The position numbers and the translations under genes were made by a program. From Brachypterus glaber (taxonomy: Eukaryota; Arthropoda; Insecta; Coleoptera; Kateretidae), in contig OY294044.1 of the NCBI GenBank assembly GCA_958510825.1, forward strand, positions 43,303,550 to 43,367,549: a DNA stretch of 64,000 nucleotides, written 5' to 3'. Position 1 is the stretch's first letter. The number at the start of each line of letters is the position of its first letter. Below, piece by piece: positions 4,062-44,881 of this stretch. Under the pieces are notes generated by a model. The model worked only from the letters and a program-made list of their open reading frames with translations, was not told where the DNA came from and did not search any database.

Positions 4062-5115
4062 CTAATTTAAATATTGCTCAAAATTATGACCATTTTGAGT
4101 AATACAGAAATTATACCGCCGAATTAATTCCCCATTAGTGACCCTCAGGAGTACGTGTCTTCTTATTGAATGGCATCCATCACGAATTCGATTTTAAAGT
4201 TCGTTTAAGTCCTCAACTGGCATTTCGAATACTTTATTTTTTAAGTATTCCCACAAAAAATCGTTTGGGGTAAGGTCTAGCAGGCCAACAAGTGGGTCCG
4301 AACCTTCCCATCCATCTTTCTCCATTATGAGGAGTCCCGTCCTGTTGAAACCACATACGGTTTCTGACAGCTAAAGGCGCCTCCTCTAATAGTCCAGGCA
4401 AGTGATTTTGCAAAAAATTTAAGTACCTTTTACAATTTAAAATACCCTGAAAAAAGTATGGACCAATTAGTAAACCTCCTATAATGCCACACCAAACATT
4501 GGTGCTAAATCTCCTTTGGTGGCTCCTTTCTCGCGCCCATTTGGGGTTTCTGTCACTCCAGTAATGGCAATTATGTCGATTTAATTGGCCGTCGTTTCCA
4601 AAATTACTTTCATCTGTCCACATAACCTCTTGCAGAAAGTTAGGATTACCTGCTCTTAAAACTGCCATGCATGCGATAAAATTTAATCTAACTACATAAT
4701 CGTTCGGCCATAGTTCTTGAACTAATATTATTTTAAAAGGGTGATATTTATTTCTTCTAAGAATTCTTCGAACTGATGTGCATGAAATGTTGTTGTCCAA
4801 ATGTATAGCAGAAATTGATGTATGAACATTTTCTTCAATAGCGCCCAAAACCACAGCTGTGTTTTCGTCATTTGTACTCCTTGTTTTTCTGTTTCTTTTT
4901 GGTTTCACAAACGAACCATATTTGCTTAAGTTCTTTATTAGCGTGGAAAAAGTTTTGTGATCTGGAGCACTCCGCTCTGGATATCTTTGGCTATAAACTC
5001 TTTGCGCTAATCTGGAATTATTTTGTAGTTCACCGTACAATAAAATCATATCCACTTTTTCCGCATTCGTAAATTGTACGCAAAAAATAAATAAAAATAG
5101 TAATTTATTCAACAT
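4062..5115 (-). pseudogene. Tc1/mariner-like DDE transposase, broken
   Basis: The open part (5115 to 4234, 293 codons) starts with an N-terminal helix-turn-helix region. The catalytic core then shows the first acidic residue in 'VMWTDESNF' (near residue 170) and the second in 'FQQDGTPHN' (near 258). The usual stretch between that motif and 'GERWMGRFGP' is missing, so the spacing to the third acidic residue is too short. Near 4270 the frame slips: the expected 'DLTPNDFLWEYLKN' motif is found only in another frame, followed by an in-frame stop and a C-terminal tail that runs to about 4062. This is an internally deleted, frameshifted pseudogene. The family assignment (transposases with the N-terminal domain called DUF4817 in insects) rests on motif recognition. 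Confidence 0.85.
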
Positions 5116-5700
5116 TTTGAAAAAACTAAAATAATATTCAAGTTTAACTTCAGAACAAGACTATAAAAATGACAAATGTCATTATGAAGGGAAATTGTTA
5201 CTTCCGAGGCATATCTGATAAAATTTAATTTAATTTAAATTTATGTACTTTTTAGGTAGAATTTTTAAAGAAATTTTCTTCTATTGATTGTTGAGTTTGA
5301 AAATTAAAATATTTTTTATTTTAAACCCAACTGTTTAATCAGTTGGCGTGAAAAGGCAAAACCTGAAATAACGCAGTCCAACGTCCTGACTGAGTCGAAA
5401 ACTAAAATATTAAAAAAATATATTTTTTCAAATTTCTGGAAAATTACTAAATCAAATGTATCATACATCAAATTAAAGGTAATAAAATTGTCTATTTAGG
5501 CATGTATAAACTTTTTTTTTAAACTTTAAGGAAAAAAACTATTTAAAGATAATCACTTTGTTTCTTTTAAAAAAAAAATTAAAAAAGGTATAAACTATTC
5601 TAAAGAGAATGAAATCATCTATAAATCGATGCCTTGCACTTTCGTATAACTTAATAAATAAAGAAGTTACATACCTGGGGAGTTTTAAGTGGCGCACCCT

Positions 5701-14789: not shown

Positions 14790-14932
14790 TAAGTAACTAG
14801 TAACTATAAACATTTAATTACACTTTTTGTAATTAATTTGACCAAAAGTGCTGTGTCCTTTTTAATGTAATAATTTAAATTATAATTATTCAAAATAAAT
14901 GTTCCTTGCAATCGGTACAAAAGAAGAAAAGA

Positions 14933-14961
14933 CTGCCCTGCTAAGACAGGAAGTCGTATCT
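14933..14961 (+). repeat. Left terminal inverted repeat of the 5.5-kb element
   Basis: Exact reverse complement of 20426-20454 over 29 bases. It contains the word 'ctaagacaggaagtcgtatct', a variant of the subterminal word near the gene. Confidence 0.9.
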
Positions 14962-15520
14962 GGAAAAACAAGGTTTCGAGATATTAAGCAATTTGTAAAT
15001 TATGATATGCCATCTCCGTTTTTGTAACAGTGCTGTGGGACTGTTACTTTGTTTTTTTAATTTCTCGTATAACTTAGTCTATCCGACATATGTTAAATAT
15101 GATTTATGTTGAATTTATTTGTTGACATGGCTTATTAATATGAAAGAACAGTTAATTATCCGTTTATTAATAAAAGCTTACCTTATTATAATGTTTGAAT
15201 CACTTTTCCTTAGTAAAATTAACATTTTTCAGAAATGTTTTGTTTTTTTTATAACCTCAAAAATTTGCACAATTTTGTATACATTTTAAGTAATTCCTTT
15301 TGAACTCATTTTATTGGACTAGTACGTTGTTTTCTTTGATAAACACATCATTTTCATGTAAAAATACTTTAAAATTTTATTCAATAAAATATTCAATGTT
15401 TTGGTTGATTGTCAAAATCCTAATGTCGGTAATTCAGGAAATCTTTTGTATCGTATGAAATATTTTTGTTTAATTAAAGTTGTGATTACAATTATTATGA
15501 AATTCTTACAGTTTGTCGAG

Positions 15521-15980
15521 TATTTTCGTTAATTTATAATTATTAGATACTTTTGGTAATTAATTAATTGTATTTTATGAAAATAGAAATAACTGCCATC
15601 TAGGTATTTTCTATTAAACTAAAATCGAAGTTCTACTAGTTTACTACATTTACCGATATTTACAGGGCTCGCTATTTTGTTAATAACTGAAATTAATTAA
15701 GAAACCAATTATTAATTGTATTTTATTAATTGTACATGTTTGTTTTATAATATTTTCGTTAATTTATAATTATTAGATACTTTTGGTAATTAATTAATTG
15801 TATTTTATGAAAATAGAAATAACTGCCATCTAGGTATTTTCTATTAAACTAAAATCGAAGTTCTACTAGTTTACTACATTTACCGATATTTACAGGGCTC
15901 GCTATTTTGTTAATAACTGAAATTAATTAAGAAACCAATTATTAATTGTATTTTATTAATTGTACATGTTTGTTTTATAA
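15521..15980. repeat. Exact tandem duplication, 2 x 230 bp
   Basis: 15521-15750 is repeated at 15751-15980 with no difference that I can find reading line by line. The unit is AT-rich, non-coding, starts 'tattttcgttaatttataat' and ends 'tgtacatgtttgttttataa'. Either a very recent duplication or an assembly artefact. Confidence 0.95.
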
Positions 15981-16059
15981 TTAATAACATATTGGTTCAA
16001 TTATAATAACAAAATAAAGTATAATTGTTGGAATTTGAGATTTATATTTTTAAGCGCCC

Positions 16060-16260
16060 TCTTTAAAGGAGTGACGTCATGCGTGCGCTACAAGCTAAAA
16101 TTCGTACTGCGTTTTCTCTCAGTCAAATTTTAAACATATCTCAACGCACGTGTGTTTGGGGTTAAATTACTGATGGCCGATATACAACCTTAAGGTAATT
16201 GAATTTTAATTGTTTTAATTGAAAATATAGTAAATGAATGTTTTATTCTTTTTCAGGCCG
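16060..16260 (+). promoter_or_regulatory. Promoter-like block with small intron
   Basis: A CRE palindrome 'tgacgtca' (16072-16079) is followed 40 bases later by an initiator-like 'tcagtc' (16119-16124), then a candidate first exon ending 'cttaag' with a GTAATT donor (16194), a 63-bp intron, and a 'ttctttttcag' acceptor (to 16256). The GC content is higher than around it. It could be the 5' end of a captured host gene or an element-encoded transcript. No clear coding sequence follows: a frame at 16504-16797 has no recognisable motif. Confidence 0.35.
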
Positions 16261-16270
16261 GTTTTTAAAG

Positions 16271-16310
16271 TTTTATTCAGTTTTATTCAGTTTTATTCAG
16301 TTTTATTCGG
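16271..16310. repeat. Four copies of a 10-bp unit
   Basis: 'ttttattcag' three times followed by 'ttttattcgg'. Falls inside the candidate second exon after the promoter-like block. Confidence 0.9.
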
Positions 16311-16503
16311 TTTTTATTAGTTTTATACTTTTTAGTATTCTTAGTATCAGCATTTTTAATGTACTACTTTTTGAAATTTCACCGCAACCACATGTATTTC
16401 AAAATGGCGTCGTAAAAAAAGGAAATACTTTTCTTTAATTTTTACAAACAAATATCATTCATCCAACGTTTTTTAATGGAAATAACTATTTTTAATACAT
16501 CCT

Positions 16504-16797
16504 TTGATGAGTAGTAGATATATTTTCAAGAAATATACATCAAATTTAGCGAGAAATCATCTAGTTTATCAAGACAAGGAAATCATAATCTTTTTGGAAA
16601 TCCGTATATATTTTAATCATCCTTTGCCGTCAAAAGCAGATGAATACGTAATATTGCATGTTTTGAAGCTGGAAACCAGAATTGGAGAATATTTATGGAA
16701 TTTTGTCATATTTAAGCGTAGACTGGTTGACAAATTTTGCTCCGTCAGTTCATGGTTTATCATCGGAAAATCTCAGAATTGGATCCAAGGATTATAA
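16504..16797 (+). CDS. Unrecognised 97-codon ORF, doubtful
   Basis: The frame begins MMSSRYIFKK and is rich in K, I, L and F, as expected of AT-rich DNA. A second frame across 16660-16810 is also open (ELENIYGILSYLSVDWL...), which weakens both. I recognise no domain. It lies downstream of the promoter-like block at 16060-16260 and could be part of a transcript there, or be chance. Confidence 0.15.
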   Translation: MMSSRYIFKKYTSNLARNHLVYQDKEIIIFLEIRIYFNHPLPSKADEYVILHVLKLETRIGEYLWNFVIFKRRLVDKFCSVSSWFIIGKSQNWIQGL

Positions 16798-17423
16798 TTC
16801 AGGTCGTAAACATTTTTAGTATTATTAATTTAAGTATCTGTGTTTTATGAAGATTTGCCATTTTTCATAAAATACACATATTTTGTCACATTTTAAATTT
16901 TGCATAATCATTACTCATGAACATTTTTAAAGAAACATTTAACTGTCAATTTTTGTAATCTTACGAAAATATTCAATTTATTTAATATAAACTCATATGT
17001 CAATCTAATTTAATTTGTTTTAATATAACCCAAACTTTCATATGATATAAACATTTTTCCTAAACTTTACTTATTTTGATAAATATAGTTTTAAGTCCAA
17101 AATTAATTATATATAAAAAATCCCACATATGACAACCCCAAAAGTAAGAATCTCTCTGCTGAGCTAGTTGTGCAAGTGTAACCAACTTTCCAACAGTTCT
17201 GTGAATATTATTTTACCATCAGAATAATATTTACATAACTTGGCTTTAATTATCAAAATATCACCCTGTGGTATACGTTTGGCACGCTAAGCCGCTTTTG
17301 CGTTATATTTTTTGGTAATAGTTTCCATGTTTAGTGCTAAAGGGTGGAATTAACTTTAATAAACCAATACAAGAAATCTTAAATAATGTATGTAGCAGAA
17401 TTTGCAAAAAAAAAGACTTTTGT

Positions 17424-17501
17424 TAGATACGATATTTTGTCTTAGTATAATACGAAGACCAAATGTCGTATCTAACAAAACCGGTTAGATAAAATGTCGT
17501 A
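17424..17501. repeat. Subterminal word array, gene 3' side
   Basis: Three copies of the end-related word: 'tagatacgatattttgtcttagta' in two segments on plus (17424-17447), its reverse form near 17456-17476 ('gaccaaatgtcgtatctaac'), and a shorter reverse copy at 17485-17501. They lie about 140 bp past the stop of the DUF7869-like gene. Such arrays are binding sites for transposase in other DNA elements. Confidence 0.7.
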
Positions 17502-17643
17502 CAATGAAACTCATATTTTAGGTTTTTTTAAACATAAGTAAATTTGTCCCATATTTTAGCAACTAATAAAAATAAACAAGTAAAAGTTTGGGATTATAAG
17601 ATATATTAATCGAAATTAGTACAATATAATTATTACTAAAAAA

Positions 17644-19857
17644 CTAATCGCTTTCAATTACTGTTCCGTCTGTTTCTGGCAAATCTTGCCAAAAGCTCAA
17701 TCTATTTGGTGGGACGATATCTGGTAACTTTTTTAACAATGTGGCTTTCCTGTCTTTGTCGATTCCTTTAGGGGCCAATCTGATCTGGTAGCTCATCTTT
17801 ATAATGTTTTGCCAGGAGGAAGTTTAGTTCAATCAATTCACCACTGAATTTAGTTTTATAAAATAGATTTTTAGAACCCCTTGTAAACTGAACTTGTACA
17901 AAATTGGCTAGATAAGGTTTAGGTATAATTTTATTCATTTTATATCGGGGAGAAAAATCAATAAAATCACAAAAATCATTAAGATTCATTTCAATCACTT
18001 CCACCCTTGAACTATTACTTTTTTTTACACACAATTTAAAATCCTCAAAATCTAATACTTATCCTGTTTGTTTTAAGGACTTCTCCACTTGATGGTGGAA
18101 AGAGTCAGCGGACATGAAAGTGTGACCAGTTTGTAAATATTTTATTTTTAATAAATTTAGATTTACTTCTGCTGAGTTAATTAAATAAACAAAAAAGCAA
18201 TACAGAGCCCAATTCTTATTCTGTGATGCACAATTATCTAGCCAAATTGTTATTTCTGTGGCGTCACGTTGAAACGAAAGAAATTTGTAAAATGTTGATA
18301 TAATATCAGATTTACTCCTCCCAGCTACTCCTTCGTGCCAAACAGCAGCTACGGGCTTGTTTGTTAAAGATTGCTTGCCTAGGGGAACAAAACTTTCATT
18401 GAAACAAATGATCCTTGGTGTAAAAATTATTTCTTTGAACATTTCACAGCGTGGTAGCATTATCACCTAAAATTTAATTTAATGATAGCATTTTGCTGAT
18501 TAACATAAAAAATGATATACCTTCTGCAAGTCTGCAGAAAAACATAATGATTCTGGGCCTGCTGTTGAAGATGCGTCAATTTTATATTCATTTCTCGCTT
18601 CTATGGCATCTTTATAATGAATTTTCCATTTTTGACAATCGTCACAATCAAAAGTAAGTTTATTCTTGTCGTGTTTGGAGTTTTTAGAATGAAGATCAAA
18701 TGTTTCGCATGGCCAACATTCTTCATGACCTAGCACAGCAAACGAAATATTCATCTCAGCTACTTGTTGGCGATAAAGTTCGTATGAAACATGAATTCCA
18801 GGATACTTTTTGAGAAAATCGTTATGCATTAATTTAATGTTAATATCACTGGGGAGGTATTTTCTATTAGGAGCATGTTCCCTTCTATAATGGGCTATTC
18901 TTGGACCAAAACCGTTTATATGGTCTATAATGGATTGTCTATCAATTTTTTTCTCAGACGGGTGTCCTCGCTTTAATGGTTTGACAAGCAAACATTTTGA
19001 ATCAGTTCTATCTAAAACATCTCTTACGATTCTATCATTATGAACTGGATACCCCAAAATTGCCAAAAAAAATTTCTTGCACACTTTTACATCAGTCCCT
19101 GTATCGGCTTTTAAATAATAAACGATTGTATTACTACGCCTAGAGTCTCCATCTTTAGTTTTCTTTTTTTTAGTGATTTTCTTTACTGAACTAAAAATAA
19201 ATTGACGTTGTTGTTCGTAGGTCAATTCCCAGAATTCTTTATTTATAGCATTTTGCCTGTTTATGTCAATTATTTGAGAACATTTTTTGTGCAATTTTGC
19301 CTGCATGTTTCCTGAACACCATGTTTTCCAATTTTTTCCTCTTTTTTCTGTTTTTTTCTTTGTTCTAAGGATGTGCTGTGTAGTTTCCTTTTTCGTACTT
19401 CTCCTTTTTTTGTAAATTTCTTTAGTTGATTATTTTTACTTATTTCCACTGCATCTTCTATAATATTGTTTAATAAATCGACAATGAATTCTTCAGGATT
19501 TTCAATTTCGCTAGCTTTTGGCGATATTTCTTGAGATTTTGAAATTAATACATCAGAAATTATATTAATCTTGTGTTTATTTGATTGAAAGTCAGTATTT
19601 TTTGACACTAGAAAGAAAGCAAATTATTATTATTTATTTATTATTATTATTATTATTCAGGTTCCTACCGATTTAAGTTTTATCTGTAATTTCTTTCGCA
19701 CTGGTTCCGGAATAAAATCGGGATCATCTAAATCTTCGTTATTATTACTATTATTGTCGTCAACTTCTTGGTGGTCTTTAATTCTAAATGAGGACATTTT
19801 TTGAGCAAGTTCTTTGTTTAGTGCTAGTGTAACTAACTTTTTAGATCTTTCGGACAT
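17644..19857 (-). pseudogene. DUF7869-like transposase gene, spliced, damaged
   Basis: Five frames line up as one reverse-strand gene. 19857-19657: acidic N-terminus (MSERSKKLVTLALNKEL). An intron with a CG|GTAGGA donor and TTTCTAG acceptor follows, though the phase does not fit cleanly. 19608-19270: lysine-rich segment. A frameshift in the poly-T region near 19325 leads to 19306-18500 (268 codons) with 'KEFWELTYEQQRQF' and a zinc-binding pattern C197-x2-C200 .. C221-x2-C224 .. H230. A 55-bp intron (AAG|GTATAT .. TTTTAG) joins 'CFSADLQK' to 'VIMLPRCEMF'. 18466-18059 has 'WLDNCASQNKN' and 'QTGHTFMSADSFHHQVE', the conserved core. An in-frame TAA near 18058 is read through to 'LDFEDFKLCVKKS' (18034-17768). 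A last frameshift leads to 'PPNRLSFWQDLPETDG' and a stop at 17644. Proposed acidic residues: D of ADLQK, D of LDNC, D or E of ADSFHHQVE. Family call from motif memory. Confidence 0.7.
18481..18535 (-). other. Probable intron in DUF7869-like gene
   Basis: On the reverse strand 'gcagaag' is followed by GTATAT and 55 bases later by 'aaattttag' then 'gtgataatgctacc'. Removing it joins ADLQK to V-I-M-L-P in frame, giving the family's usual continuous block. The exact boundaries may be a few bases off. Confidence 0.6.
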
Positions 19858-20103
19858 CTAGGAATAATAAAACACACATAACATAACCATAAAAATAACC
19901 GGTAACGGCGAACAACAAGTTAACTATTTAAGTACAACATACCTTGTCTTATTTCTGTATCAACAGTTTAATAAAATAGAGAAACACATAACTAATCCTA
20001 TTTCTTCAATAAAGAATCACTTTAACTTAAATAATTCAATAAACGATAATAACAAAAAATTAACAGTTACGACTGTCAATAATTGGATCCGCCCACTATC
20101 CGA

Positions 20104-20303
20104 TACTAAGTCATAATGTCGTATCTAATATTTTAGATACGACAAAATGACCTAGAAAAAATCAATACGACTTTCTGACTTAGTACAAACACTAAGTCAA
20201 AATGTCGTATCTAACATATTTTTATTCAGATACGACAATTTGACTTAGTAATAATCCATACGACTTTTTGACCTAGTAAGAGGTACATTTTTGCAGATAC
20301 GAC
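20104..20303. repeat. Subterminal word array, gene 5' side
   Basis: At least six copies of 'agatacgac' joined to a 'tgacttagta'-like tail, in both orientations: 20104-20128 (reverse), 20134-20155, 20165-20185, 20190-20215 (reverse), 20227-20250, 20258-20279, and a bare 'cagatacgac' at 20294-20303. The end repeat at 20426-20454 is a further variant. They lie just upstream of the gene start, so they may also affect its promoter. Confidence 0.8.
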
Positions 20304-20425
20304 GAACAAAATATCATTTAAAATCACTATTTTTAATTGAGATATGACATCTAGACCTTGTCTTGATGGTAGAGCACACCCGAATGTACCAGAAACCGGC
20401 ATAACCTGAAAAACTCAATTTTTGT

Positions 20426-20454
20426 AGATACGACTTCCTGTCTTAGCAGGGCAG
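20426..20454 (-). repeat. Right terminal inverted repeat of the 5.5-kb element
   Basis: Exact reverse complement of 14933-14961. Confidence 0.9.
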
Positions 20455-20814
20455 AAGAGTGCGGACAAAGAGTTTAATGCACTCTCTGCAAAAAACAAGC
20501 ATGCAGAAGTCACAGGGTCCTCCAAATAATCGCTTATCTTCTCTATTTTTGGTGACATCTTCGTGGATGCAGCTATTTTTGCACTTATAACATTCTTGCG
20601 AAGTCATTTTGAGGTTATGTCACTTCACATTCGGATATGTATGCAGACACGATAAATTATTGTTGCATATATTCACAGTGTTATAAATTATTGATTATAC
20701 GAACAATTAACAACAAAATTATGTCAATTTAAATACTTTTGTCAATTTGACATTTCTTGTCAAAATTTAAATATTACAGATGTCTGTAAAATTTAAAAGT
20801 TAGTTTTAATATGT

Positions 20815-21714: not shown

Positions 21715-23530
21715 TGGAAAACAAAAATCATTAATAACAATGAAAGTAGGCTATTATATAACAGCGAAAAAAAAGAATACAACAAATTAATTAATATTAG
21801 GAAAAAAGAATATTTTAAAAAAATAATAGATTCAGCGGAAAATAAACAGAAAAAAGTTTGGGAATTAGTTAACTTAAGCTTAGATCGAGCAAATAAAGCC
21901 AAAAATATTACTTTGAAATCTGATGACAAATTACTAACCGAACCGAAGCTGGTAGCGGATACTTTTGCAAATTACTTACAATATAACAGAGAGTAGCTTA
22001 AATAAACACTTTGGAAATATTCGCTCCAATCAATGTAGTTACTGTTTCTAAGCCAGTAGAAAACTCTTTCTTTTTTGTGTATGTTACTGAGAAAGAAGTA
22101 AAAAAAGTAATTTTAAACCTTAAGATTAAGAATAGTGTGGGAATTGATAACTTCAGAAAGGGAAGATCAACTGAGAGTGCGGCTTGTGACTTTGCCAACT
22201 GTATATATAAATGTTTGGATGATGGCGAATTTGTAGCAGCTATTTTGTTTGATCTTTCCCGAGCATTTGATACATTAAAATTCAAATTTGTTAAATCTAA
22301 ACTTTTTAATTTAGGGTTTAGAGGTTTTATCCTATCTTGGTTAATAGATTACTTAAATCATAGGGAAATGTGTGTTAAGATAGGTAATTCACGCTCTGAA
22401 AGTCACTACATGTTTTCGGGAATTCCTCAAGGATCTGTGCTGGGTCCTCTTATATATAAATGAACTACCTCAACACGTAAGAGCCAAACTCCTGATAATG
22501 TTTGCAGACCATACTTCATTTTTGGTATCAGCACGGACTCTGGGGGAACTTAAGTTGCTTTTAACTATTGTAATTACAGATTTTTTAAGTTGGTGTAGAA
22601 AGAATGAACTCATTGTTAATGCAGATAAGGCAGTATGCTTATATTTCCATAATGAGATACGTAGTGCATTATCAGAAACATCCCTAGATATAATCTAGGA
22701 CAGTTGTAGAATATCTCCCTGCATAAATACAAGATTTCTTGGAGTAGGTCTTGATAGTGATATGAGATGGAATAGCCACATAGAAATAGTACCTAAAAAA
22801 TAAATAAATCTTTTTTCGCTCTCGATGCTAGATGCTAGATGTTAAGGGCCTACTTAGTGTATATTATTCTTCAGTTCATTGTCATCTGGCTTATAATGTA
22901 TTACTTTGGGGTAACGCTATAAACTGCTCTAGAATTTTGGTTCAACAAAAGCGAATCTTAAGGCTCATATTTGGATTGAAATATAGAGACTCATGCAAAC
23001 CTTTTTTTATTCAACATCAAATACTAACGTTGCCCTGTATTTACATTTTTAAGTCGGTTCTCTATGTGAAACAAAATTTGCATCGTTTTGATCATGGATC
23101 TACTTCAAGAAATCTGTGTACATTGAAGATACCGAAACATAAGTCGGCCCTGTTTAAAAAGTCTCCGGAGTATGCTGGTGTTAAACTGTATAATAATCTT
23201 CCATCAGTGCTTAAAGAAATCACCCAGTTCTCTAGATTTAAAGCATCAGTAAAAGACTTTTTATATAAAAAAACTTATTACTCTGTTAAGGAGTTTTTAG
23301 ATTTTTAAATGTTTTGTCTTTTTTATTTGTTACTTTTAATAGTTGTACTTTATTTATGTTATTTATTTTGTTTGTTTTGCGCTCTGTATTCTAACCTAGG
23401 TATATTATTTTTGTATATATTATGTAAATTATTGTTGATAACTTTTATTTTATATTTATGATACTTTGACTTGTATATCCATCCTAGGATGGCACAAATA
23501 CTAAATATACTATTCTATTCTATTCTATTA
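21715..23530 (+). pseudogene. LINE ORF2 (reverse transcriptase), 5' truncated and internally deleted
   Basis: Coding remains begin near 21721 with the linker before RT (KKVWELVN.., 'VADTFANYL'). After a frameshift, 22011-22463 has 'NSVGIDNF' joined directly to 'RKGRSTESAACDF', so the RT fingers and motif 'YRPISLL' are missing; then 'AAILFDLSRAFDTLKF' (first catalytic D) and 'GIPQGSVLGPLIY'. The next frame 22498-22698 has 'FADH' where FADD is expected, so one catalytic Asp is lost. A thumb and C-terminal part follow (22832-23308: LAYNVLLWGNA.., ending EFLDF). The 3' end is a (TATTC)n tail at 23510-23529. CR1/jockey-like, dead. Confidence 0.85.
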
Positions 23531-39589: not shown

Positions 39590-41695
39590 TTTTTATTAAC
39601 TACCTTTTTTTTAATACAATCTATCCTAGGACAATAAGTATTTTTTATGTACAATAAAAATAGACATGTGGAGTAGGATGCCAGTGCATTCTCTCCATTA
39701 TACATTACAATATATTTGTGTGACAATGGAAAATAAAATAAATAAAAAATATCACATAAATCTAGTGGGTAAGTCGTTTGGTCTAAATCACTTCAAACGT
39801 TTAGGTTCATTAATGGGCTCCATTAACTTATTAGCTAGTTTATTTGGGTGGTCACTTATTCTGTCTTTGTATTTAGAACTAAAGTTTTGTATTTCATCTT
39901 TTACTAAAGGGACACCTAAATCACGATGTAATACTTTGTTTGGTACATACCATGGCGCATTTACTATTAAGCGCAACACTTTGCTTTGAAATCTTTGGAT
40001 AATTTCAATGTTTGAGTTACTGGCTGTCCCCCAGAGTTGTATTCCGTAGGTCCAGATTGGTTTAAGAGATACCTTGTATATAAGTAATTTGTTTTCAGTG
40101 GATAGCTGATACTTTCTACCAATCATCCAGTAGAGTTTTTGTAAAGTTATTCCTAGCTGTTTCCTTTTTGTGAACAGATGTTTTTGCCAGGTAAGTCTTC
40201 TGTCGATATGTAGTCCAAGGTATTTAGCACTCTCTGATTGTTGTAGTTGCTTACCATTTAGTGATACTGGTGGACAATTGTCTCTATTCATTGTATATGT
40301 TACTTGCACCGATTTGCTCTCATTTAGCTTAATTCTCCATCGCTTGCACCAGTTGTGAATTTCATTTAGGTTGGTTTGTAAGTTTCTTGATGCAATTTTT
40401 GGGTTACTATGGGATGAAAGAATTGCTGTGTCATCAGCAAATGTTGCTGTTGTAGTGAGACCAGATGTTGGAAGATCTGAGGTAAAAATAAGGTAAAATA
40501 TTGGTCCTAGAACGCTTCCTTGTGGAACTCCTGCCAGAATGGGATTTAAATCGGAGTATTCATCTTTACATTTTATCGTAAAATACCTATTGGTAAGGTA
40601 AGATTTTAAAATTTCATATATATCATATGGTAAGTATGTTTTTAATTTAAATAGCAGGCCTTCGTGCCAGACTTTATCAAAAGCTTGTGTCACGTCGAGG
40701 AAAACAGCAGGGCAATATCTTTTTCTGTTTAAATCTCTAGAAATTTTTCTAATCACTCGATGAATCTGCTCTATTGTACCATGATGGTTTCTAAAACCAA
40801 ACTGATGCAATGGTATAATATTTTTTTCCTTTAGGATTGGTAGTAGTTTTTTTAATAGTAGTTTTTCATATACTTTTGATAGTATTGGCAACAAACTTAT
40901 CGGTCTATATGAGGTAACTTCTTCCAAAGGTTTTCCGGGTTTCGGTATTATTATTATTAGAGCCACCTTCCAAGCATTTGGAAAATAGCCAGTTCGATTA
41001 ATTGGATTAAATATTTGTGTCCTTTTACTGCTTTCTTTGGTAGCTTTTTTAAAATTTCCCCAGTTATTAAGTCATATCCAGGTGCTTTTTTTGGGTTAAT
41101 TTCTTTTTTGATGACTTTTTTAATATCCTTGACTTTGAATTTGGAAATAGGTAGACTCATCTGGTGTGGGCATTCATTAAACTGCTCAATTTCCTTGTCC
41201 TCTTCGGGGCACTGACTTGGGGCAGGTTGAAATACATTTGACAGATGTTCAGCAAATAAAGTAGCCTTTTCTTTGTCACTTCTAGCCCAGTTACCATTTT
41301 TAGTTTTGATGGGAGAAATATATATAATTGGTCTTTTTATGGCTTTTGTAGCTTTCCAAATCGAATAGTTGCTGTTTTCAGAGGCTGAAAGACTTTGAAG
41401 GTAATCTGCAATGCCTTGATTTTTTACTTCTAGCATGACATTTTTTAACTCTTTGGTTAGTCGGTTTAACGTAGTTTTATCATCAGTCAATCTGTGGATT
41501 TGCCAACGTTTACGAGCTTTTCGTTTTTCTATAATCTTTTCACCAACAACTATGGGACAATCATATTTTTTAGTGTCCTGTTTTATATCAGGAGTTGCTT
41601 CCCAAGCTGCTTGTTGTATTATATTGGTAAGGGTTGTTATACCCTCATCAATATCTTCCCTGGTTTTTAACGTTATATCTATATATGTATGTATG
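39590..41695 (-). mobile_element. Jockey-type LINE, 5' truncated, nested insertion
   Basis: On the reverse strand the sequence enters inside the endonuclease C-terminus (41680), covers the whole reverse transcriptase, a 3' UTR of about 190 bp, and ends in a poly-A run (TTTTTTTT at about 39604-39612 on plus). TATG-type repeats flank both sides (39572-39585 and 41683-41704), so the target lay in such a repeat. It interrupts the forward LINE (38942-44881). Confidence 0.8.
39788..41680 (-). pseudogene. Jockey-like reverse transcriptase, one frameshift
   Basis: From 41680: 'REDIDEGITTLTNIIQQAAW', 'KRKARKRWQIHRLTDDKTTL', then RT: 'PKKAPGYDLITGEIL', a frameshift near 41010, 'NRTGYFPNAWKVALIIIIPK', 'SYRPISLLPILSKVYEKLLL', 'HQFGFRNHHGTIEQIHRV', 'PAVFLDVTQAFDKVWHEGLL' (first catalytic D), 'GVPQGSVLGPIFYLIFTSDL', 'TFADDTAILSS' (FADD at about 40430), 'KYLGLHIDRRLTWQKH', and a long thumb and C-terminus to 39788. 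The motif order and WKVA..I.KPGK style are those of the jockey clade. Only one frame break is seen, so this is the youngest-looking LINE in the window. It lacks ORF1 and most of the endonuclease. Confidence 0.9.
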
Positions 41696-42029: not shown

Positions 42030-44881
42030 AGAAATACTGAATGAATTAGAGAATGAGGGAGAGATGGAAACTAGGGTTGTTGAGGATATAAAATTATTTA
42101 AAAATGAAGTAAGTGGTGAAGGTAATATCATAACATCAGAAGCTTAAACAAAAACTTTAATGAGCTTATGATTTATTTAGAAAAAATTAATTTAAAGGAC
42201 GTAGGTGTAATTATTTTATCTGAGACCTGGAGGGTTGACTCAATAGATCACTATAGTATTCCTGTCTTTGTGCATATCATAATAACTCGTGTATAAATCA
42301 AAATTATGGTGTTTTAATTTATATAAATAATAAAATTGTTCATAATGTAACAGGCATTGATCTTTCTGAAACTAAGTTGCTACGAATTATCTTTGAGTTA
42401 AATAATACCCAAATTGGTTTAACCACTTCATATCGTCCGCCATCCATAAACGAAACCACATATATTGACGAAATAAATTACTATTTTACTAATCTAAATA
42501 ATCAAAATATTGAACTATTTATTCATAGGGGAAATCAATATTGATATTTCAGACAAATGCGACAAAAATTCAATAAAATATCTAAATAATGTGTATGAGC
42601 GGGGGTGGATGCCTTATATCAATAAACATACAAGAATAACAGATAAAAGTGCGACTGTAATAGATCACATTTTTATTAAAGCTAAAGAAAGTTTTCTTAA
42701 AAACAACCAAATACAACTAAAACCTTATATATTAAAAACAAATCTCACTGATCATTACACGATTTTTTTGGCTTTAAATTTTGCAAACGATCATATAAAT
42801 ACACCACTAAACCCAGATAAATATATTATAAATTTTACAAAACTAGAAAACGAAAATAATTAGAAAAATGAAAGGACGTACTCGAGTGTAGTGAGCCCAA
42901 TTATTGTTATACATTATTTCTACAAAAGTTAAAGCAGTATGTTAATAACGCAAGTGTAAAAGAAGCACCCCATAATAATAATAAATACAATAAAAAGCTT
43001 AAACCCTGGATAACCAGTGGGTTAATCAAATCTATAAGAAATAGAGATTCATTAAAAAAATAAACTGAATAAAAACTTTTCTCTCGAAGCAAAAACAGAA
43101 TATAATGTCTATCGTAATATGCTAAATTCACTAATAAAAAGTACTAAAATGAATACTATCAAAATTAAATCAAAAATGCTGGAAAAAATTATAAAAAAAT
43201 CTGGGATGTTATAAATGAAGCTTTTAATAGTTTAAAACATAGGGAAAAAAATAATTTTAATATACTTGATAAATCTGGTAACTTAATAAAAGATGATAAA
43301 AATAAAGCAAAGGAATTTAATAATTTTTTCATAAATGTTGGAGATAATATGGCTAAAAAAAATTGGTAAAAATAACTCTCAAGATCAACCAAGTAGGCGA
43401 ATAGCTAATTCACCTTTTATTAAACCACTAACAAAGAATGAATTAATTATTAAAATTTGACAACTAAAATCTAAATCATCGCCAGGTCTCGATGGGGTAA
43501 CAGTTACCACTATTAAAAAAATACATACCTTCTTATTGGATCTTCTTGTACATATTATAAATTTATGTTATGCTACAGGGGAGATACCTAACGAGTTTAA
43601 AACTACAAAGGTGACTCCAGTTCATAAGGCGGGCGATAAGCAAAGCCTTACGAATTACAGACCAATTTCTGTTATTAATAACTTTGGGAAACTTTTTGAA
43701 ATGTGTCAGTTTGGCTTCAGAAAAGGATTAAGTACAGAACACGCTATTACAAGAAATAATATTGAATTTACATAACAACAAAAAAATACTAACAATATTT
43801 CTTGATCTCGCAAAGGCTTTTGATACCGTCTCCCATAAAAAACTACTAAATAGGCTGGAAAACATAGGTATCAAAGGAACACTTTTAACCTTGTTTAAAA
43901 ACTACCTTAGCAAAAGAATTCAACGTGTAAACATTAACAATTCAATCAGTGACCCTATGGAAATCATAATGGGAGTCCCTCGGAGGACTGTGTTAGGACC
44001 TATCTTGTTCTTGATTTACATAAATGAGTTATCTGCAATTCACGATTTAGGTGGTTTACTTATAAGCTACGCTGATGATACAGCTGTAATTTTTAGTGGT
44101 AATACATGGGAGGAGGTGTATAGGAAGTCTGAGCGGGCTCTTCAAATTTTGTTAAACCGGTTAAATAATAGTCTTTTAAGTCTGAATTTGAAAAAAACTA
44201 AATTTCTTACTTTTACCATATTAGCAAATAATCAGCCACAAAAAAATACATTAACTATTCATAATAGTTTATGTAATAAAATAAAATGTGACTGTGGTAA
44301 TAGATAAAGTAGAATCTATAACTTATCTAGGAATCAAAATAGATCAGCATTTAAAATGGCATGAACAATCGAGTTTTTTAACAAAAAAATTAAAAAATCT
44401 AATATATAAATTTTACCAGTTAAGAGGCATTTTATCATTTTCCAACTTATTGTTGTTGTATAAATCTCTAGCGGAGTCCATTTTGAGGTATGGAAAAGTC
44501 ACACAAAACACTATTTTAAAAATTTTATTTAAGAAGAATTACCTGTACCCCACTGAGACTTTGTATGATGAATTAAATTTATATGATATTAAAAGTTTGT
44601 ATGCTTTCCAATGTATATTACATACTTATAATTCACCTTTAGACAGCATCTCACATAATAAAAATAACAGAGCGATGTTAAATTTCCAATTTGTAGTTCC
44701 TCTATTTAAAAAAAGCCATACTCAACACTCTATTCTTTATAACGGGCCAAAACTATATAATGTTCTCCCTCTAGAAATCAGAAACATAAAAAAATTCCAC
44801 CTATTTAAAACAAAAGTAAAACAGTATTTTAGCCATAATAAAAAAAAATTCTTAAACGTTCTGGAAAATCCAACTGTCTAG
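42030..44881 (+). pseudogene. LINE ORF2 (endonuclease + reverse transcriptase), frameshifted
   Basis: Endonuclease: 'NIRSLNKNFNELMIYLEKIN', 'VIILSETWRVD', 'TSYRPPSINETTYIDE', then 42510-42863 'IGEINIDI', 'TVIDHIFIKA', 'LTDHYTIFLAL'. RT: 'SKSSPGLDGVT', 43536-43775 'YRPISVINNFGKLFE' joined to 'CQFGFRKGLSTEHAI' with about 25 residues missing, 43762-44307 'IFLDLAKAFDTVSHKKLL' and 'GVPRRTVLGPILFLIYINEL' (GVPRR for GVPQG), YADD at 44068-44079, 44288-44881 'YLGIKIDQHLKWHEQ' to the C-terminus. Five or more frame breaks. CR1/jockey-like. The 3' end runs into a (TC)n tract at 44917-44956. Confidence 0.9.

Follow-up and report, generated by a model that had tools for sequence, protein, structure and literature searches.

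A 64,000-nucleotide stretch of the genome of the beetle Brachypterus glaber (contig OY294044.1, positions 43,303,550 to 43,367,549; hereafter the window) contains a unit at positions 14933-20454 that is bounded by terminal inverted repeats and carries a reverse-strand gene for a DUF7869 protein (Table 1). As a preliminary description of this DNA had stated, the outer 29 nucleotides of the two ends are identical (94% identity over 36 nucleotides), and both ends are flanked by AAGA as a 4-bp target-site duplication. The inner 21 nucleotides of the repeats have no further site in the window at up to three mismatches, and 100 shuffles gave an expectation of 0.00. A 21-bp motif, CTAAGTCAAAATGTCGTATCT, was found 11 times inside the unit when up to six changes were allowed, its sites being the two terminal repeats and subterminal arrays, where it runs in either orientation. 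The remaining window has four occurrences, every one with six changes, and 50 single-base shuffles of the unit gave a mean of 0.36 and a maximum of two. These putative transposase binding sites, as the motifs are likely to be, lie on both sides of the gene. The gene is readable as three exons, with predicted splicing, and contains LDNCASQNKNW and GHTFMSADSFHHQVE. Pfam DUF7869 (PF25273) matches one fragment of it (E 1.4e-7, 31.8 bits; cut-off 26), in agreement with the spliced DUF7869-like gene described before. The copy in the window is dead: it has one in-frame TAA (18059-18061) and two frame breaks, one in exon 2 and one in exon 3 near the C-terminus.

The unit had been described as a single element of 5.5 kb. 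When its left 201 bp were searched against the B. glaber genome (648 Mb), it was found that the sequence from about 15023 onward has at least 39 other genomic matches, several of them paired about 9 kb apart in the manner of long terminal repeats (LTRs). Comparison with fetched copies set the borders of a 2,285-bp solo LTR inside the left arm of the transposon. Its insertion duplicated TTTT, as read from the sibling transposon sequence at the same point, and the insert was seen in none of the 15 sibling copies examined. Thus, the transposon measures about 3.2 kb at full length, and the single 5.5-kb element is rejected. The solo LTR itself matches LTRs at other genomic places over long stretches, with identity of up to 100%, and therefore appears to belong to a young LTR-retrotransposon family. 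Compared with the copy at locus L009, it has one additional 230-bp tandem unit (15521-15980).

Is the unit one of many? The right end was found in 11 copies including that of the window; these cover 379 or more of its 395 bp with 96-100% identity. Five further copies match the right end over the outer 244 bp only and are internally deleted copies of 1.38 kb, while an additional set shares just the last 46-51 bp at 84-88% identity. Among the sibling copies, six are 3,229-3,301 bp in length, and L044 (3,426 bp) and L051 (2,966 bp) have internal differences. I examined 31 loci, that is, 30 fetched loci and the window. Both ends were found in 22 of them, comprising 15 of the window's family and seven relatives that are short or diverged and have 3-6 base differences in their ends; the other nine (L046, L058, L059, L060, L062, L064, L065, L068, and L070) have one end only in the fetched stretch and were excluded from the duplication count. 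An exact 4-bp duplication flanks the element at 21 of the 22 loci, and flank matches over 3 bp or 5-8 bp were found at none of the 22. The sole locus without an exact 4-bp duplication is L051, whose last base is also altered. The recurrence of the ends with a duplication of fixed length bears out the earlier claim that the unit is a mobile DNA element. The 21 duplications are TATA (seven), AATA (five), TATT (three), and AAGA, ATTA, AGTA, AATG, CATA, and TGTA (one each), so that the AAGA of the window is an unusual target within its family. When both strands are counted, C directly precedes the target in 20 of 42 cases and G directly follows it in 20 of 42. The target preference is palindromic and TATA-centred, roughly C-TATA-G.

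Pairwise identity among five full-length copies is 99.2-99.7%, and a sixth is 96.3-96.6% identical to them; this comparison covers six copies and omits the window as well as L044, L046, and L051, which have internal differences or a missing end. All three exon frames, as read from the DNA, are open in L053. One premature stop is common to L043, L047, L051, and the copy of the window, each of which occupies a different site. This suggests that copies already broken went on to spread by means of another copy's enzyme acting in trans. Movement in trans is also suggested by the five 1.38-kb derivatives, because each of them is inserted at a separate site and has a 4-bp duplication of its own. Taken as a whole, the best explanation, which I hold with high confidence, is that the window's family is a young and recently active cut-and-paste DNA transposon family of about 3.2 kb. 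Shorter relatives were also observed. L061, L063, L066, L069, and L072 are 428-504 bp in length, with terminal repeats 3-5 changes from those of the window and exact 4-bp duplications; they are miniature relatives, too short to hold the gene. Two longer elements, L067:3624-5782 (2,159 bp) and L071:301-1100 (800 bp), likewise have related ends and exact 4-bp duplications.

For the protein, conservation and structure were considered on an alignment of 64 proteins out of the best 120 matches of a protein search. The structure of a relative, P0005, which is 53% identical to the window's protein, was predicted to have the RNase-H core of transposases and integrases, and this core has three acidic residues according to the model and the conservation. 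The finger that the preliminary description had noticed is present, and its pattern reads CxxC-H-CxxC-H, each position being conserved in 63 or 64 of the 64 relatives. Foldseek alone gave no significant match for the predicted structure, a sequence search against the chains of solved structures gave three weak matches (best E 0.063) that were judged unrelated, and NCBIfam gave no family for the three relatives tried. The closest named protein among the matches listed is from Callosobruchus. A Hydra protein, P0087, is 47% identical to the window's protein, and horizontal transfer may possibly account for such similarity between Hydra and insect-like DUF7869 proteins. With two short motifs used as patterns, 55 prokaryotic and three viral matches were obtained, none of which was confirmed as a relative.

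The DUF7869 profile matched 39 places in the B. glaber genome and gave no match in 14 control genomes. One of the 39, L073, represents a second multi-copy family, whose element measures about 3.05 kb, has 31-bp ends starting GAATCG, and carries a frame of 559 amino acids. Its protein matches DUF7869 at 37.5 bits (cut-off 26), and its alignment to the window's family spans 494 columns (hhalign E 2.3e-23); the two families are deeply divergent. Six copies of the left end, with 98-100% identity in the left 200 bp, were found in the genome. Short end stretches were fetched for the five other copies in addition to L073, and it was revealed that all six have matching 4-bp flanks (ATAT, ATAT, ACTT, AAGT, AATT, and AATT). 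The duplications are of the type A..T in all six and strictly AWWT in four. This count takes the element to start at GAATCG; a start at TGAATCG fits L073 (with TATA) but fails for the copy on C2. Ends of the type TGAATCG flanked by a 2-bp duplication would give an identical picture if the target were A..T anyway; a 4-bp duplication is the more economical reading. At C12:992535-992681, a related stretch is continuous across the insertion point with 78% identity, as expected of an empty site, and a shorter match at C18:11590689 likewise spans it. The preliminary description had held that a DUF7869 protein with different ends would speak against the element. L073 is literally such a case, but it was not taken as a refutation, because the duplication has the same length, as is to be expected when two families are members of one superfamily. 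Next to the element lies a frame of retrotransposon type with zinc-knuckle motifs (L073:3133-4101), and the flanks of the element resemble one interrupted repeat. A possible third multi-copy DUF7869 set has a 253-amino-acid frame (G000:C4:6216256, C2:68455908, C2:51957542, and C15:44061461).

Because an RNase-H core is predicted and 4-bp duplications accompany DUF7869 in two divergent families, DUF7869 is, as far as the model can tell, a DDE/D-type transposase. The gene might instead be a passenger or a captured host gene in an element moved by another protein. Transposons can carry passengers, such as Fanzor in Sola2 elements (PMC3627910). However, the full-length siblings have no other coding-strand frame of 90 or more amino acids between the ends (the opposite strand was listed for the window only), and two families with different ends carry DUF7869 with a predicted transposase/integrase core and invariant acids. 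The passenger gene is thus extremely improbable and was rejected. The earlier view of the final E as catalytic finds no support. In the L073 family, K stands opposite this E and the H is missing, but the D ahead of the E persists and three aspartates are conserved. Thus, the catalytic triad is probably D-D-D, namely D421, D500, and D544 in P0005, separated by 79 and 44 residues. If the third acid were E551, D544 to H547 would be the C/DxxH motif known in hAT, P, Kolobok, MuDR, and Dada (PMC9587614; PMC3706591), and D544, H547, and E551 are indeed conserved in 64, 63, and 63 of the 64 relatives. I consider this decidedly unlikely, given that copies of the L073 family, which has K in place of E, show 98-100% identity in their left 200 bp and have clean duplications, and that the model places D544 close to where the last core helix (542-557) begins.

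Table 1. Features of the transposon and of the LTR nested in it (window coordinates)
Feature	Position	Strand	Remarks
Left target-site duplication AAGA	14929..14932	.	
Left terminal inverted repeat	14933..14961	+	29 nucleotides identical to right repeat (36 nucleotides at 94%)
Transposon left end as far as nested LTR	14933..15022	+	96.7-100% identity to 15 sibling copies
Nested solo LTR, foreign to the transposon	15023..17307	+	TTTT 4-bp duplication; missing in 15/15 siblings
Remaining left subterminal region	17308..17643	+	Two inverted copies of the 21-bp motif (17425-17445, 17453-17473)
Transposase exon 3	17644..18466	-	Second catalytic D (LDNC..QNKN), GHTFMSAD, C-terminus; roles predicted
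Predicted intron 2	18467..18520	-	GT...AG, 54 bp
Transposase exon 2 (start approximate)	18521..19607	-	N-terminal cysteine cluster, CxxC-H-CxxC-H finger, first catalytic D (SADLQK), predicted
Transposase exon 1 (MSERSKK...)	19669..19857	-	First splice junction approximate
Right subterminal array	20106..20276	.	Six copies of the 21-bp motif, both orientations; weaker seventh at 20340-20360
Right terminal inverted repeat	20426..20454	-	
Right target-site duplication AAGA	20455..20458	.	

A mechanism may be proposed from these features. The transposase would bind both the terminal repeats and the arrayed subterminal motifs, excise the element by means of its three aspartates, and join both ends 4 bp apart into the palindromic target. 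Copies with a broken gene, such as that of the window, would be moved in trans by intact copies, and the solo LTR would have inserted later into the left arm. The only label of numerous insect proteins, and of one or more from Hydra, is DUF7869 or 'uncharacterized'; with the domain identified as a transposase core, such entries would become recognisable as mobile DNA and not host genes. Since near-identical copies, one with open frames, are available together with defined ends and a defined target, the family is directly testable for transposition.

Elsewhere in the window, a reverse-strand frame at 4234-5160 has a match to the DUF4817 helix-turn-helix (PF16087) and is presumably a remnant of a mariner-type transposase. 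Reverse-transcriptase frames (PF00078) at 22002-22463, 39788-41071, and 43732-44307 are probably fragments of non-LTR retrotransposons.

Which superfamily do the DUF7869 elements belong to? Mariner/Mos1 and retroviral integrases are unlike them in that the sequence search against solved structures gave nothing of significance (best E 0.063), and mariner duplications are 2 bp (PMC3706591). The piggyBac and Kolobok superfamilies share 4-bp duplications and a DDE/D transposase with them but use TTAA as the target (PMC9587614), which was found in none of the 21 duplications of the window's family and its relatives and in none of the six of the L073 family; the TTAA-type superfamilies were therefore rejected. 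The hAT, P, MuDR, and Dada transposases resemble the window's lineage in the DxxH-like motif ahead of E, whereas their duplications are about 8 bp (hAT and P) or 6-7 bp (Dada) in length (PMC3706591). The C/DxxH motif is not found in the L073 family and thus does not hold for DUF7869 as a whole.

The preliminary description had considered that DUF7869 might have no accepted transposon superfamily, which is doubtful. A rival reading is that the DUF7869 elements form a superfamily of their own, apart from Sola2 and the other named groups, which would be characterized by 4-bp duplications, a DD(~44)D core, and a GH(T/S)F..(A/C)D motif. In its favour, no displayed name says transposase in the best 120 of 620 and the best 120 of 255 proteins, although most are nameless and the names are abbreviated. 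The papers searched contain no mention of DUF7869, PF25273, four motif strings, or 'Sola2 transposase'. Against it, a group so abundant in insects and Hydra would hardly be missing from Repbase, and all six L073-family duplications start with A and finish with T. A superfamily apart from Sola2 is unlikely in my view. A little less doubtful, but still tentative, is that DUF7869 represents either a transposase superfamily of DDD type or a Sola2 far wider than is recognised, with two old lineages that differ in ends and targets (TATA-palindrome and A..T) and keep the strict 4-bp spacing; if so, the DxxH..E of the window's lineage would be a secondary feature outside the catalytic triad. I regard Sola2 as the likely superfamily of DUF7869, by resemblance of traits and not by comparison of sequences. 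One trait weighs against it and for a separate superfamily: Sola2 targets are AWWT, as described in Dictyostelium (PMC3627910), while those of the window's family are of the TATA type, mostly TATA, AATA, or TATT. Sola2 is nevertheless marked by AT-rich target duplications of 4 bp, has terminal inverted repeats, and encodes a transposase that is 888 amino acids in length in Dictyostelium DFa-2 (PMC3627910), and the DUF7869 elements are alike in all three respects, with 4-bp AT-rich duplications, terminal inverted repeats, and a transposase of several hundred residues.

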